Assembly: GCF_021272345.1 (NCBI RefSeq)
Contig: NZ_JAJSDQ010000004.1
Location: 62,001-126,000 of the forward strand
Direction: 5' to 3'
DNA length: 64,000 nt
Source: Ornithinimicrobium sediminis
GTDB lineage: Bacteria > Actinomycetota > Actinomycetes > Actinomycetales > Dermatophilaceae
The notes beneath the pieces are model-generated. The model had not been told where the DNA came from, ran no database searches, and saw only the letters and a list, made by a program, of their open reading frames with translations. Made by a program: the position numbers and the translations under genes. Shown here in pieces: positions 3,488 to 44,406 of this stretch (position 1 is its first letter; each line of letters opens with the position of its first letter).

Positions 3488-3763
3488 TCACCGGGAACCC
3501 GGCGTGCCCGAGGCAGGACCGTCGGTGTCGGGTCGGTCGGTGTCGGGTCGGTCGGTGTCGGGTCGGTCGGTGTCGGGTCGGTCGGACTTGATCTTGTCCA
3601 GCCCTGCCCGCGCGTGGTCACTGCCCTTGCGGATCTGGTCCTGGTAGCGACCGCCGGTGCGGGTGTTGGCGACCTCACCCAGCTTGGTGATGCCCTGGTC
3701 GATCGTGCCGCGGTGCTGGGTCGCCGTTGCGCGTGCCTTGGCGAGCATGTCCTTCAGCGCCAT
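3488..3763 (-). CDS. MT0933-like antitoxin-family protein with DRPDT repeats
   Basis: This 91-residue protein starts MALKDMLAKARATATQHRG and continues ITKLGEVANTRTGGRYQDQI, the core of the MT0933/Rv0909-like family (antitoxin domain PF14013). After residue 60 it becomes a repetitive tail with four DRPDT units. The ATG at 3763 has AAAGAGG 8 bases upstream; the longer frame to 3976 is unlikely to be translated. No toxin partner (Rv0910-like) is adjacent, so the antitoxin role is only a family label. It may instead be a general small helical stress protein. Confidence 0.72.
   Translation of the reverse strand: MALKDMLAKARATATQHRGTIDQGITKLGEVANTRTGGRYQDQIRKGSDHARAGLDKIKSDRPDTDRPDTDRPDTDRPDTDGPASGTPGSR
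3521..3580. repeat. 15-bp minisatellite, four perfect copies
   Basis: Four identical head-to-tail copies of a 15-nt unit (gtcggtgtcgggtcg) are followed by a 5-nt partial copy. Because 15 is a multiple of three, copy-number changes keep the reading frame and only lengthen or shorten the DRPDT tail of the gene at 3488-3763. Confidence 0.95.
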
Positions 3764-3797: not shown

Positions 3798-4829
3798 TTA
3801 TCGGTAAGAGTGGTGGGTGGAGCTGGGGGATCTCCACAGGGGCTGCAGGGCCGCGTCCTCGGTCTCGGTCGCGACCCGGAACGGGGGGTCGGCCGGTGCG
3901 GGCAGTGCTTGCCGACCCTGTCCGCGGGTGGCGCCCAGGCTGGCGAGGATCGAGACGGTGATGATCGTGGCGACAACCGCCAGGGACACGGTGGTAGGGA
4001 TGTAGAAGAGGTCGATCTTGAGCAGCATCTTCATCCCGACCCAGACCAGCACCAGGGCCAGGCCGACCTTGAGGTAGACGAAGCGGTGGATCAGGTCGGC
4101 GAGCAGGAAGTACATCGCACGCAGACCCAGGATCGCAAAGGCGTTGGCGGTGAAGACCAGGAACACCTCGTCGGTCACCGCGAAGATCGCCGGGATGGAG
4201 TCCACCGCGAAGACCACGTCGGTGACCTCGACCAGGACCAGCACGGCCAGCAGCGGGGTGGCCAAAAGCACGCCGTTGCGACGCACGAGCAGCTTCTGCC
4301 CGTGGTAGGTCTGGCTCATCGGCACGAACCGGCGGAAGCTACGCAGGACCGCTGAACGCTCCGGGTCGAGGTGCTCGTTGCGTTGCCGGATCATCCGGAA
4401 CCCGGTGTAGAGCAGGAACGCAGCGAAGAAGTAGAGAACCCAGGAGAAGTGCTGGATCAACACGGCCCCCGCAGCGATGAAGATCCCACGAAACACCAAC
4501 GCCCCCAGCACTCCCAGGAACAGCACCCGGTGCTGGAACTCACGAGGGACAGCGAAGTAGCTGAAGATGATGGCCCAGACGAACACGTTGTCCACCGCCA
4601 GGGACTTCTCGATGAGGTAGCCGGCGAAGTACTGCTGCCCGAGCTCAGCGCCCCACACCCACCAGACGATGGCGCCGAACGCGACCCCGAAGGCGACCCA
4701 CACCCCAGACCAGGCGGCTGCTTCCCTCACCCCGATCACGTGGGCACGGCGGTGGGCGAAGAGGTCGATGGCCAGCATGACCACGATGAAGCCGAGCACC
4801 GAGGCCCAGACCCAGAACGGGACATCCAC
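3798..4829 (-). CDS. TerC/Alx family integral membrane protein
   Basis: This 343-residue protein with about nine hydrophobic helices belongs to the TerC family, which exports or handles metal ions such as manganese and is linked to tellurite resistance. Family motifs are visible: EKSLAVDNVFVWAI near residue 75, VEVTDVVFAVDSIPA near 205, and the acidic intramembrane residues they carry. The GTG at 4829 is chosen because GGAG lies nine bases upstream and a riboswitch ends there. The open frame to 4976 runs through that RNA and is rejected. Manganese-dependent expression follows from the leader. The C-terminal tail after residue 315 is poorly conserved. Confidence 0.9.
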   Translation of the reverse strand: MDVPFWVWASVLGFIVVMLAIDLFAHRRAHVIGVREAAAWSGVWVAFGVAFGAIVWWVWGAELGQQYFAGYLIEKSLAVDNVFVWAIIFSYFAVPREFQHRVLFLGVLGALVFRGIFIAAGAVLIQHFSWVLYFFAAFLLYTGFRMIRQRNEHLDPERSAVLRSFRRFVPMSQTYHGQKLLVRRNGVLLATPLLAVLVLVEVTDVVFAVDSIPAIFAVTDEVFLVFTANAFAILGLRAMYFLLADLIHRFVYLKVGLALVLVWVGMKMLLKIDLFYIPTTVSLAVVATIITVSILASLGATRGQGRQALPAPADPPFRVATETEDAALQPLWRSPSSTHHSYR

Positions 4830-4838
4830 GTAGAAACA

Positions 4839-4944
4839 CTCCGATCGATGATCGGAGGTCTCTCCCAGCCCTGTGACGGGCCCGCTCGCCGGAACCCTCA
4901 TGGGCCGTAGTGACGACGAAGCGTGAGTGGGGTACTCCCCTCCT
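4839..4944 (-). promoter_or_regulatory. yybP-ykoY (manganese) riboswitch with Shine-Dalgarno-sequestering hairpin
   Basis: Read on the minus strand, the leader contains GGAGGGGAGTA (4943-4933), CGTCACTACGG (about 4914-4904) and GGGAGAGACCTCC (about 4866-4854), in the order of the yybP-ykoY core. P1 pairs GGAGG (4943-4939) with CCTCC (4858-4854). A competing hairpin pairs 4857-4850 with 4846-4839, an 8-bp perfect stem with a 3-nt loop. Its 3' arm contains the GGAG of terC and its 5' arm overlaps P1. Metal binding would therefore stabilise P1 and free the ribosome site, a translational ON switch. Confidence 0.85.
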
Positions 4945-4997
4945 GTGCGACGGAGTAGAACACGCTCCCCCGACACCGGTCAAGTCCTCGTTGAACC

Positions 4998-5457: not shown

Positions 5458-7818
5458 ATGTACGCCCGCATGATCGCCCGCGACTTCCGCCGCAACCGCA
5501 GCGTCACCCTGATCCTGGTCCTGCTGATGATGCTCTCGGTGGTCCTGGCCACCGCCAGCGCGGGGACCCTGGTCCGGCCCGTCGGCGCGTCCAGCGATCT
5601 GATGACCCAGGCTGACGCGCCGCACGTAGCCCAGCTGCATGTGGGTCCCTACGACCAGGAGCAGGTCGACGCCTGGGCGGCCGGTCGACCCGACGTGGCC
5701 CACCACCAGACCATGGTCATGCTGGGCATCAGCGGAGCCAACCTGTTCTTCGACGGCACGGCACAGACCGACAACATCCAGCAGAACTCGCTCGTCGTGC
5801 CCAACACTGAGCGGGACCTGCTCCTCGACCTCGACAACCAGCCGGTCACCGAGGTGGACGTAGGCACTGTCGTGCTGCCCGTCATCTACCAGGTGGAGGC
5901 CGACCTCGAGGTCGGCGACCCGGTGACGATCACCGGTTCTGACGGTTACGTCACCGAGCTCACCATCGCCGGCTTCGCGCGCGACTCGATCATGAACCCC
6001 GCGATCACCAGCTCCAAGCGCCTCGCGGTGTCCCCTGCCGACCTGGCGGACGTGCGTGCCCATACCGGTGAGGTCGAGCAGCTCATCGAGTTCTGGCTGC
6101 ACGACCCCGACGCGGAGAGCGCGACGTTCCAGAAGGCCTACCAGGACTCCGACCTGCCGGCAGCGGGTCAGATGGTGGACGCCGCGGCCTTCCGCATGTT
6201 CACCATGATCGGCGACGGGATGGTGGCCGCCGTCGTGATCCTGGTGGCCGCGCTCCTGCTGGTCGTCGGGATGCTGTGCCTGCGGTTCTCCTTCCTGACC
6301 GCAGCCGAGCAGGACTACCGCGAGATCGGTGTCCTGAAGGCGATCGGCGTCCCCGGACACGGTGTGAAGCAGATCTACCTCACCAAGTACGCGCTGCTGG
6401 CCGGGATCGCCACCGTGCTGGGGCTCCCCGTCGGGCTGGCGCTGACACCCCTGCTCACCCGGAACATCACGCGCTACATGGGGTCGGTCCCCAGCGTCTG
6501 GAACTGGGTGGCCCCGGTCCTGGCGGGGACCGCCGTGCTCACGGTCCTGGTGCTCTTCGTGGTCGTGCTGCTGCACCGCTTCGACAAGATCAGCGCCGTC
6601 ACCGCGCTCAGCGCGGGGACCACGGGCAGGCAGGCCCGGGCGGTGATGCGCCTGCACCGCTCACGGATGCCGGTGCAGCTCCGCCTCGGTGTGATGGACG
6701 TGGTGGGCCGGTGGCCGACCTACCTGCTGCTGTTCCTCGTCTTCGCTGTGAGCACCTTCATCATCATCGTGCCGGTCAGCTCGGCCGCCACGGCCGGCGC
6801 ACCCGCCTTCGTCAACTACATGGGCACCGGTCAGGTCGACCTGCGGATCGACCTGCGGCACGCGGACTCCACGTCAGCGACGGAGTTCGAGCAGATGGTG
6901 GCTCAGCTGGAGTCCGACCCCGACGTGACCGCCGTCGCCCCGATGGTCACCACCCGCAACGACAGCGTCGACAAGGACGGCAACACCGCCAGCCTCTACG
7001 TGGAGAACGGTGACCACACCCTGCTCCCCCTGACGTATGCGGAGGGCCGGGCCCCCACGGCCCCCACCGAGATCGCGCTGTCCCTGCTGGCGATGAACCA
7101 GGCCGGCCGCCAGGTCGGCGACACCCTTCCCGTCCAGGTCGGGGCCCAGGTCAGGGAGCTGTCGGTCGTCGGGAGCTACCAGGACATCACCAACGGTGGC
7201 AAGACGGCCAAGTCGGTCCTGCCGACCGGCGAGGACGACGTCATGTGGTACATGGCCGGGGTCGAGCTGACGCCGGGAACGGATGCCGGCGCCACGGCCT
7301 CGGTGTACGCCGAGGAGTTCGCCCCGGCGGCGGTCGCGGACATCGAGCAGTGGCGGATCCAGACCCTCGGTCCGATCGCGCAGCAGATCATGGTCACCGC
7401 TGTCGTCTCGGCCGTCGTGGCACTGGCCCTGGCGGCCCTGATGACGGCACTGTTCACGCGGATGCTCCTCGCACGCGACGCGGGCCCTATCGCCGTACAG
7501 CGGGCGGTCGGCGCCGACGACCCCGGCCTGCGACGGCAGTACCTCACGAGGGTGTTGCTCGTGCTGCTGCTGGGCGTCGTCGTCGGGACCGTCGCGGCCA
7601 ACACCCTCGGCGAAGGGCTGTTCAACCTCATGTTCGAGGGGATGTTCGGCGGCTTCGAGTCGCTCGGCCAAGGAACCAGCCGCATCGACTTCGCGGTCGA
7701 CCCCCTCCTCACCTACCTGGCCCTGCCCGCAGCGCTCCTGGCGGCCGTGGCTCTCACGACGAGCGCGAGCTCGCGCTCCATCTCCGAAGCCCGTGTCTCC
7801 ACCCTCACCACCGAATAG
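5458..7818 (+). CDS. ABC transporter permease, FtsX/MacB type
   Basis: This 786-residue permease carries two FtsX modules. A first helix at about residues 18-36 is followed by a large extracytoplasmic domain (to about 250), a three-helix block (ILVAALLLVVGMLCLRFSFL onward, about 260-370), a second helix-plus-domain half from about 415, and a final three-helix block (about 640-770). The segment YREIGVLKAIGVPGHGVKQIY is the coupling helix motif that contacts the ATPase. This type exports lipids, lipoproteins or peptides mechanically rather than importing solutes. The ATPase gene follows 9 bases later. The cargo is unknown. Confidence 0.88.
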   Translation: MYARMIARDFRRNRSVTLILVLLMMLSVVLATASAGTLVRPVGASSDLMTQADAPHVAQLHVGPYDQEQVDAWAAGRPDVAHHQTMVMLGISGANLFFDGTAQTDNIQQNSLVVPNTERDLLLDLDNQPVTEVDVGTVVLPVIYQVEADLEVGDPVTITGSDGYVTELTIAGFARDSIMNPAITSSKRLAVSPADLADVRAHTGEVEQLIEFWLHDPDAESATFQKAYQDSDLPAAGQMVDAAAFRMFTMIGDGMVAAVVILVAALLLVVGMLCLRFSFLTAAEQDYREIGVLKAIGVPGHGVKQIYLTKYALLAGIATVLGLPVGLALTPLLTRNITRYMGSVPSVWNWVAPVLAGTAVLTVLVLFVVVLLHRFDKISAVTALSAGTTGRQARAVMRLHRSRMPVQLRLGVMDVVGRWPTYLLLFLVFAVSTFIIIVPVSSAATAGAPAFVNYMGTGQVDLRIDLRHADSTSATEFEQMVAQLESDPDVTAVAPMVTTRNDSVDKDGNTASLYVENGDHTLLPLTYAEGRAPTAPTEIALSLLAMNQAGRQVGDTLPVQVGAQVRELSVVGSYQDITNGGKTAKSVLPTGEDDVMWYMAGVELTPGTDAGATASVYAEEFAPAAVADIEQWRIQTLGPIAQQIMVTAVVSAVVALALAALMTALFTRMLLARDAGPIAVQRAVGADDPGLRRQYLTRVLLVLLLGVVVGTVAANTLGEGLFNLMFEGMFGGFESLGQGTSRIDFAVDPLLTYLALPAALLAAVALTTSASSRSISEARVSTLTTE

Positions 7819-7827
7819 GTGACAGCC

Positions 7828-8592
7828 ATGACCACAGACACACCCCTTCTCGAGGCCACCGGGCTGACGAGGTCCTTCTCCGGTCACACCGTGCTGCACG
7901 GCGTCGACCTGCAGGTCCACCACGGCGAGCTCCTGTCGGTGATGGGACCGTCGGGGTCCGGCAAGTCCACCCTGCTCTACACCATCAGTGGGATGGACAC
8001 CATGAGCGCGGGCACCGTCAGGTTCGATGGGCAGGAGCTGGCTGGGCTGAACCAGAAGCAGCTGGCCCGCCTGCGGCTGACCAGCATGGGATTCATCTTC
8101 CAGCACGTCCACCTGTTGAAGAACCTGTGCCTGCTCGACAACGTCGTCCTGCCGGCATACCTGGCGGGTCTGGCACCTCGGTCAGACCTCAACGACCGGG
8201 CGCTGCAGCTGATGGAACGCACTGGTGTCGCCGCGCTTGCGGACCGGGACGTCTCCGAGGCCTCCGGCGGCCAGCTCCAGCGCATCGGCATCTGCCGGGC
8301 GCTCATCAACTCCCCGACCATCCTGTTCGGGGACGAGCCCACGGGGGCGCTCGACTCCACCGCTGCCGCCGAGATCATGGACATCCTCGCCGAGCTCAAC
8401 GCCGACGGCATGACCCTCATGCTGGTCACCCACGACCCACGAGTGGCCGCCCGCACCGAACGAGTGCTGTACATGGTCGACGGCCGCATCGTCGGCGACC
8501 GCCGTCAAGAGCGGTATGCCGGCGCCCACCTCGACCAGCGGCAGACCGAGCTGAGCCAATGGTTGATGGCCGGCGCACCGGTCCGGACCTGA
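7828..8592 (+). CDS. ABC transporter ATP-binding protein, LolD/MacB type
   Basis: This 254-residue ATPase has Walker [10 protein letters not shown] near residue 42, a Q-loop around [10 protein letters not shown], signature SGGQLQ and Walker [14 protein letters not shown], followed by the H-loop VTHDPRVA. The EPTGALDS form is typical of the LolCDE/MacB/FtsE group and fits the preceding permease. The ATG at 7828 has AGGTGA about nine bases upstream, overlapping the permease stop region; a GTG at 7819 immediately after the stop is less likely. The two genes form one operon. Confidence 0.92.
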
Positions 8593-43160: not shown

Positions 43161-43326
43161 ATTGCGGTACGGTAACGAACAGTTCCTGGCAGCGTCGCCG
43201 CGGACGGTCAGGCCTTCGCCGACACCGCCCCGGAGGCGTCGTCCCGGAGCGCCCCGGAGGACGCCCGTCCACCGGGTCCTTTACAACGGATCGTCCGGCA
43301 CGTTCCTGCCGGTGAAGGAGATGGCC

Positions 43327-44406
43327 ATGGCCTCTGTGACCTTTGACCACGCGACGCGCATCTACCCCGGGGCGGACACCCCGTCGGTGGACAAGCTCAA
43401 CATCGAGATCGCCGACGGCGAGTTCCTCGTCTTCGTCGGCCCCTCCGGCTGCGGCAAGTCCACCAGCCTGCGCATGCTGGCAGGCCTGGAGGAGGTCAAC
43501 GAGGGCCGCATCCTGATCGGCGACCGCGACGTCACCTCGCTGCCCCCCAAGGACCGCGACGTGGCGATGGTCTTCCAGAACTACGCGCTCTACCCCCACA
43601 TGACGGTCGCCGACAACATGGGCTTCGCGCTCAAGATCGCCGGCAAGTCCAAGGAGGAGATCCGCACCCGCGTCGAGGAGGCCGCCAAGATCCTGGACCT
43701 GGAGGACTACCTCGACCGCAAGCCGAAGGCCCTCTCCGGTGGCCAGCGGCAGCGCGTGGCCATGGGTCGCGCGATCGTGCGCCAGCCGCAGGTCTTCCTC
43801 ATGGACGAGCCGCTGTCCAACCTCGACGCCAAGCTGCGCGTGCAGACCCGCACCCAGATCGCGTCGCTGCAGCGTCGTCTCGGCGTCACGACCGTCTACG
43901 TCACGCACGACCAGGTCGAGGCCATGACGATGGGTGACCGGGTCGCCGTGCTCAAGGACGGCCTGCTCATGCAGTGCGACTCGCCGCGCAAGCTGTACGA
44001 CCACCCGAACAACGTGTTCGTCGCCGGCTTCATCGGTTCCCCCGCCATGAACCTCATGAAGGTGCCGGTGACCGACGGTGGCATCAAGTTCGGTGACGCG
44101 GTCCACCCGGTGGAGCGCGAGTACCTCTCCCGCGCGGGCTCGGAGGTCATCGTCGGGGTCCGTCCGGAGGACGTCACCCTCGACGACTCCGGCCGTGGCC
44201 TGCCGGTGCTCATCGACGTGGTCGAGGAGCTCGGCGCCGACGCCTACATCTACGGCGAGCTGCCCGGGTCCAGGACGACCGACAAGCCGTTCATCGCCCG
44301 GGTCGACGGCCGCACGCCGCCGCGCAAGGGTGAGACGGTGCACTTCCTGCCCAAGTCCGACCACATCCACCTGTTCAAGGTGGACGACGGTGAGCGCATC
44401 AGCTGA
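43327..44406 (+). CDS. msmK: sugar ABC transporter ATP-binding protein, MsmK/UgpC type
   Basis: This 359-residue ATPase has Walker A FVGPSGCGKST near residue 38, Q-loop MVFQNYALYPHMTV, signature LSGGQRQRVAMGRA, Walker B VFLMDEPLSNLDAKLR and H-loop VYVTHDQVEAMT. A C-terminal OB-type MalK regulatory domain starts at about 240 (VIVGVRPEDVTL). AAGGAG lies six bases before the ATG at 43327; the ATG at 43321 abuts it directly and is unlikely. Actinobacteria commonly use one such ATPase for several sugar importers, so it probably serves MalFG and others. A strong terminator follows. Confidence 0.94.
   Translation: MASVTFDHATRIYPGADTPSVDKLNIEIADGEFLVFVGPSGCGKSTSLRMLAGLEEVNEGRILIGDRDVTSLPPKDRDVAMVFQNYALYPHMTVADNMGFALKIAGKSKEEIRTRVEEAAKILDLEDYLDRKPKALSGGQRQRVAMGRAIVRQPQVFLMDEPLSNLDAKLRVQTRTQIASLQRRLGVTTVYVTHDQVEAMTMGDRVAVLKDGLLMQCDSPRKLYDHPNNVFVAGFIGSPAMNLMKVPVTDGGIKFGDAVHPVEREYLSRAGSEVIVGVRPEDVTLDDSGRGLPVLIDVVEELGADAYIYGELPGSRTTDKPFIARVDGRTPPRKGETVHFLPKSDHIHLFKVDDGERIS

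Follow-up and report, generated by a model that had tools for sequence, protein, structure and literature searches.

The closest described relatives of the element considered here are the yybP-ykoY leaders of Escherichia coli, Lactococcus lactis and Corynebacterium glutamicum. For the E. coli alx and mntP leaders, translational riboswitch reporters rise with Mn2+, and in mntP it is translation initiation that the metal switches on (PMC9603457). The L. lactis yoaB riboswitch (4Y1I) acts by transcription termination (PMC9190785), with P1 (P1.1) as its switch helix; A41 of its L3 contacts Mn2+, and G9, U39, C40, U44 and C45 also belong to the site (PMC9190785, PMC11087558). Regarding the regulated genes, TerC proteins have roles in Mn efflux or metalation (PMC10550928), and genes of the GDT1 family (UPF0016) are reported under yybP-ykoY in 328 of 333 strains (PMC7380456). 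Actinobacterial yybP-ykoY leaders are already in print (PMC3890552, PMC8164766), and Corynebacteriaceae and Mycobacteriaceae are among the groups surveyed (PMC3766115). The terC leader of Corynebacterium glutamicum (cg2157) was given 49.13 bits to RF00080 in the 2013 Rfam (PMC3890552). A description of such a leader in actinobacteria at the level of the Shine-Dalgarno (SD) sequence was not found in the literature searched.

The DNA analyzed, referred to as the window, is a stretch of 64,000 nt from Ornithinimicrobium sediminis (contig NZ_JAJSDQ010000004.1 of assembly GCF_021272345.1, contig positions 62,001-126,000), and all coordinates are window positions. Relatives were taken as the best 80 of the 224 loci returned by a TerC protein search, one of them titled Chloroflexi MAG. 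The alignment, A1, comprises 76 rows including the window (73 distinct), and position numbers such as 7, 94 and 108 are alignment positions. A covariance model, R1, was built from 50 hand-picked rows of these 76, the window among them. The features located are collected in Table 1.

Table 1. Features of the terC leader of O. sediminis and of the gene behind it (window coordinates)
Feature	Positions	Strand	Basis or remark
yybP-ykoY-type aptamer (P1, L1, P2, P3 with L3, P4)	4853-4944	-	R1 80.2 bits and covariation, 76 rows
P1 5' strand, GGAGG	4939-4943	-	partner 4858-4854
L1 5' side, GGAGUA	4933-4938	-	G11, A13, G14, U15, A16 in 76/76 rows; G12 in 75/76
L3 metal-core pentamer, CGUCA	4911-4915	-	C34, G35, C37, A38 in 76/76 rows; U36 in 72/76
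L1 3' side, GAGA	4859-4862	-	A88, G89, A90 in 76/76 rows; G87 in 63/76
P1 3' strand, CCUCC (shared switching strand)	4854-4858	-	predicted to pair with P1 5' strand or, at 4857-4854, with SD arm
SD-sequestering hairpin, CUCCGAUC-AUC-GAUCGGAG	4839-4857	-	8-bp stem
terC Shine-Dalgarno, GGAG	4839-4842	-	end of hairpin 3' arm
terC, Alx-type TerC, 343 aa, GTG start	3798-4829	-	PF03741 185 bits; TIGR03718 R_switched_Alx 409 bits, cut-off 246
Possible promoter, TTGACC 4983-4978, 18-base spacer, TCTACT 4959-4954	4954-4983	-	by eye

The element is very probably a yybP-ykoY riboswitch that senses Mn2+ and acts through a translational ON platform in front of terC. The aptamer, both helices, their overlap and the gene are established at the level of sequence and by comparison with relatives. 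By analogy, we infer that the window leader has Mn2+ as its ligand and responds in the ON direction, because the mntP and alx reporters rise with Mn2+ and TerC has Mn roles (PMC9603457, PMC10550928). As an earlier note on this DNA had proposed, the core elements GGAGG, GGAGUA, CGUCA, GAGA and CCUCC follow one another in order on the minus strand, from 4944 to 4853. The P1-L1-P2, P3-L3 and P4 architecture is present, with five helices and 27 pairs, and the L1 (GGGGAGUA and GAGAC) and then the L3 (CGUCA) motifs stand in the family order, which is identical in alx. The aptamer precedes a Mn2+ efflux or handling gene (TerC, TIGR03718), whose GTG codon (4829-4827) lies nine bases 3' of the SD. The terC leader RNA would possibly begin near 4947, judging from the promoter picked by eye; a promoter consensus scan gave none at its threshold.

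The comparison with the E. coli leaders reveals both shared and divergent parts. The alx leader has in common with the window the L3 core UCGUCANUACG, the loops GGGGAGUA and GAGACC, and a TerC/Alx gene; its L3 stretch reads UCGUCAUUACG, where the window has UCGUCACUACG, the part of P3/L3 in which CGUCA (4915-4911) is embedded. The alx P4 is longer, with 31 bases where the R1 model has 5, and the alx start codon lies 80 bases past the aptamer with more stems in between (by eye), whereas the SD arm of the window comes directly after the aptamer. The mntP leader likewise carries GGGGAGUA and GAGACC, but its L3 is GUCAACAUACU. The leader of C. glutamicum cg2157 is also actinobacterial and upstream of terC, a likeness taken from its listing (PMC3890552). 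P1 is also the predicted switch helix of the window, as in L. lactis yoaB; unlike the yoaB terminator, however, the window platform sits at the SD (PMC9190785). The window CGUCA with A4911 (A in 76 of 76 rows) is likely the counterpart of the Mn2+-contacting L. lactis A41.

Membership in the yybP-ykoY family, also claimed earlier, is upheld by R1. The model, which covers the window (a training row) with 80.2 bits and E 3.5e-18 over model positions 1-94 of 94, recognizes E. coli alx, which is not a training row, with 39.9 bits (E 1.1e-7). Homology to a validated member is thereby found through alx, the mntP leader giving 17.4 bits at E 0.075.

The Rfam model behaves differently. The gathering score of RF00080 in Rfam 15 is 45 bits, and nothing anywhere in the window exceeds it; at a loose threshold, the stretch 4953-4794 obtains 11.5 bits (E 0.24). 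At E<=0.001 the O. sediminis genome contains no RF00080 match, and when 20 of the 80 collected terC loci were scanned, none passed the cut-off. The earlier note had accepted the lack of a significant match as refutation, and read literally this is what was obtained, but the model also misses the validated alx leader, which is not reported even at E<=5, while the mntP leader, at 41.6 bits, stays short of 45. Since both E. coli leaders fall short, the failed match says little on membership, and Rfam was dropped as sole judge of it after these yardsticks. That the element arose by chance or has decayed, without function, could draw on the low RF00080 score, but is highly improbable, as the relatives conserve the element with compensatory changes.

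This conservation is apparent from the inspection of the 80 loci. In 75 of them, GGGAGUA or a close variant stands within 220 bases 5' of the terC start, with the same core behind it; the motif is absent from that stretch at L019, L032, L057, L076 and L077. L077 has a full R1 match 163 bases upstream of the gene, slightly outside the searched stretch, and constitutes the 76th locus. R1 matches lie 1.7-1.8 kb upstream at L057 (54.9 bits) and L076 (32.9 bits), the score at L019 is no higher than 15.2 bits (E 0.27), and L032 has no listed match. L019, the contig titled Chloroflexi MAG, encodes a TerC that is 85% identical and has no significant aptamer match; the contig is perhaps misbinned actinobacterial DNA.

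The 27 aptamer pairs show clear covariation. Pairing is possible in 92.2% of the cells vs 80.7% after shuffling, 19 of 27 pairs have changed on both sides, and the covariation score is 0.365 vs 0.162 for shuffled alignments and at most 0.144 for slid partners; four of five measures were reached by none of 500 shuffles and the fifth by one. For the eight hairpin pairs, 92.9% of the cells are paired, six of the pairs have changed on both sides, and the score of 0.519 compares with 0.225 after shuffling and no more than 0.182 for slid partners. Here three of the five measures were reached by 0/500 shuffles, and the other two, reached by 224 and 160 of 500, do not go beyond shuffles. In 37 of the 73 distinct rows the hairpin lacks pair 92/110, by eye often due to a bulged A, and row L074 seems, also by eye, to be misaligned in the hairpin columns. 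Two aligned pairs, 17/86 and 45/55, are non-standard in the window itself.

The bases shared by the two helices are those 4857-4854, four in all, and since both helices need them, P1 and the SD hairpin would be mutually exclusive, in line with what the earlier note had read from the letters. The conservation of this arrangement is best followed at base 94. Of the 76 rows, 50 have G-C and 26 have A-U at P1 pair 7/94; position 108, the hairpin partner of base 94, carries G in 64 rows and A in 12 and pairs with it throughout, 14 times as G-U. Base 94 is therefore able to pair with both 7 and 108 in 76/76 aligned rows, the pair 94/108 relying mostly on G-U tolerance rather than on a second swap. 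Mapped onto a quick tree built from the 76 TerC proteins, the position 7 swap takes six changes and base 94 follows in each contrast; only three of these contrasts lie on supported branches (p 0.25). Because related rows share ancestry, the cell counts overstate the independent events. Collectively, the covariation evidence is strong in sum and modest in independent events, and the relatives preserve the predicted incompatibility of P1 with the SD hairpin, with compensatory changes in both helices. Ungapped matches to the five bases of the P1 3' strand reach at best 5/5 in 42 and 4/5 in 34 of the 76 terC leaders, vs 9% and 51%, respectively, in shuffled leaders.

In front of the aptamer of many relatives (L008-L087), the promoter region contains a palindrome, GTGAAGNNNNCTTCAC, mostly 12-21 bases 5' of the aptamer GGGAGUA. 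Its arms match at 12/12 in 17 of the 76 leaders and at no fewer than 10/12 in 39; for 60-base stretches drawn at random from the loci, the rate is 0.3%. It was not found in the window (7/12), L008 (6) or L009 (7). With up to two mismatches, the O. sediminis genome gives 76 matches, the best of those listed with one mismatch, vs 40 when the pattern is reversed, and this pattern search could not link the palindrome to a regulator. The palindrome suggests a second, putatively protein-based control of terC in relatives.

Regarding the surroundings of terC, a gene for an MT0933-like antitoxin-family protein (PF14013) with a tandem RPDT repeat (3488-3763, minus strand) starts 34 bases past the terC stop and is possibly co-transcribed with it. 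Divergent genes for an FtsX-type permease and an ABC ATPase lie upstream of terC (5458-8592, plus strand). Elsewhere in the window, an msiK RNA is found at 43269-43327 on the plus strand (55.9 bits, cut-off 33).

The proposed sequence of events starts from the hairpin. At low Mn2+, CUCCGAUC (4857-4850) would pair with GAUCGGAG (4846-4839), and the terC SD would be hidden. Once available, Mn2+ would bridge L1 and L3 and stabilize P1 (4943-4939 with 4858-4854), which would block the hairpin and allow terC to be translated; TerC would then help to export Mn2+ or to pass it to exported enzymes. A translational ON switch calls for an SD held in a helix competing with P1, and this arrangement is present in the window leader.

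The 8-bp hairpin with the SD in its 3' arm, as described before, was recovered independently by a stem scan with the same eight pairs. It may be longer than had been claimed: the minimum-energy fold prolongs it by six pairs, AGAGAC with GUUUCU, past a bulged U, so that it may span from L1 nearly to the GTG. Compared with shuffled sequences, the leader folds with z -2.28, and 4 of 200 shuffles are as good, which is weak alone. The unpaired probability of the SD is 0-0.001 in the free ensemble and 0.08-0.68 with the aptamer pairs enforced, which means that the SD is only partly free in the model. The hairpin state is predicted at -55.3 kcal/mol vs -43.4 kcal/mol for the P1 state, i.e. 11.9 lower, and the full aptamer at -38.6 kcal/mol. 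Given this gap of 11.9 kcal/mol, Mn2+, the L1-L3 tertiary contact or co-transcriptional folding must favor P1. As the P1 3' strand is made before the SD arm and the energies favor the hairpin, P1 would presumably be captured during RNA synthesis.

The same hairpin permits a different reading, and termination is the main rival: the stem 4857-4839 and the following UGUUUCUA would form an intrinsic terminator, with Mn2+-held P1 as antiterminator. A terminator scan flags exactly this hairpin (one in the window, shuffles mean 0.2), and the L. lactis yybP-ykoY switch does act on transcription (PMC9190785). The window tail fits, but most relatives do not, since at least five U within the eight bases after the arm are found in just 16 of 76 leaders, the window included; moreover, the arm itself is the SD, and only nine bases separate it from the start codon. 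Such an attenuator is thus considered quite unlikely, and translational control remains the preferred reading.

A further question is the identity of the signal. The alx reporter rises 3.5-fold from pH 8.5 alone (PMC9603457), and the window L3 is of the alx type, so that the primary signal of the leader might be pH or a metal other than Mn2+, as reported partly for alx. This is unlikely: Mn2+ activates alx too (PMC9603457), and the genes that follow the aptamer, TerC, a P-type cation ATPase and GDT1, belong to Mn2+-linked families (PMC7380456, PMC10550928). Mn2+ is kept as the probable ligand.

Beyond the window copy, R1 finds two other strong matches in the O. sediminis genome (80.2, 68 and 44.2 bits for the three) and a weak one of 22.7 bits. 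The second copy (68 bits) precedes a P-type cation ATPase and the third (44.2 bits) a second TerC. The best NCBIfam score of the ATPase is of the PMR1 type, at 735 below the cut-off of 798, while PMCA-type Ca2+ and general P-type models pass. In the ATPase copy, the P1 letters are those of the window and the hairpin is different; in front of the second TerC, P1 reads UGAGG/CCUCA. The predicted folds of both copies show the P1 3' strand paired with the SD zone. The weak fourth match (C7:434197-434298, E 0.07) lies within an ABC-transporter frame and was taken as chance.

The aptamer is widespread in the class, with R1 matches in 201 of 296 genomes (E<=0.001). RF00080 matches seven of the 296 and none over its cut-off; the ratio between the two models is approximate, because stricter filters and different first looks were involved. 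Of the seven RF00080 matches, five were compared with R1, and R1 overlaps all five (G158, G280, G320, L125 with 33.9 bits and L126 with 51.5 bits). In a sample of 29 loci skewed to high scores (L094-L122), the genes behind the aptamer encode GDT1 (17), TerC (10) and an uncharacterized protein (2).

The platform was compared by folding 32 loci, namely these 29, the two other O. sediminis copies and the window, and a start codon could be placed automatically in 26 of them. In 6/26, the P1 3' strand is predicted to pair directly with the SD zone: the window, the O. sediminis ATPase and second TerC copies, L098, L107 and L119. In this folding test such direct pairing is absent from 16 of the 17 GDT1 loci, both uncharacterized-protein loci and the TerC loci L105 and L121. 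The loci with no assigned start (L094, L095, L097, L106, L108 and L120) are all TerC; in these six, and in L105 and L121, a stretch complementary to the P1 3' strand can be seen by eye further downstream. This distribution indicates that the direct three-strand platform is proper to TerC/ATPase leaders and not to the whole family. According to these folds, the GDT1 leaders (family f38; L099-L104 and L109-L118) seem to use a two-hairpin platform, in which an intermediate arm takes up the P1 3' strand and a second hairpin contains the SD.

An uncharacterized protein of ~280 aa follows the Mn2+-type aptamer at L096, at L122 and in the genus of G290. The L122 protein, the member tested, has no match in Pfam, NCBIfam or PDB. 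All 59 genomes examined of the genus of G290 contain an R1 match, and homologues of the L122 protein are present in 26 of the 59 at E<=1e-60 and in 31 at 1e-5. In 23 of the 26 (hand count), the homologue follows a same-strand R1 match at a distance of at most ~200 bases, the exceptions being G359, G397 and G395.

Taken singly, a Mn2+ riboswitch in front of a TerC gene is nothing unusual, and the earlier view that it is worth describing holds in part: a terC yybP-ykoY leader was already listed in 2013 for C. glutamicum (PMC3890552), and GTG starts are common among the terC relatives (26/76). The shared switching strand nevertheless makes a clear, testable translational switch, and looking at the genes behind the aptamer offers a route to Mn2+ genes so far unrecognized. 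The leads are an annotation gap and an uncharacterized protein family behind the same aptamer. RF00080 overlooks this branch in most R1-positive genomes of the 296 examined, so that Mn2+ regulons are hidden. The chances are evenly balanced that a large alx-like Mn2+-riboswitch branch, barely seen by Rfam, counts among its targets, in the ~280-aa family, a new factor of Mn2+ homeostasis.
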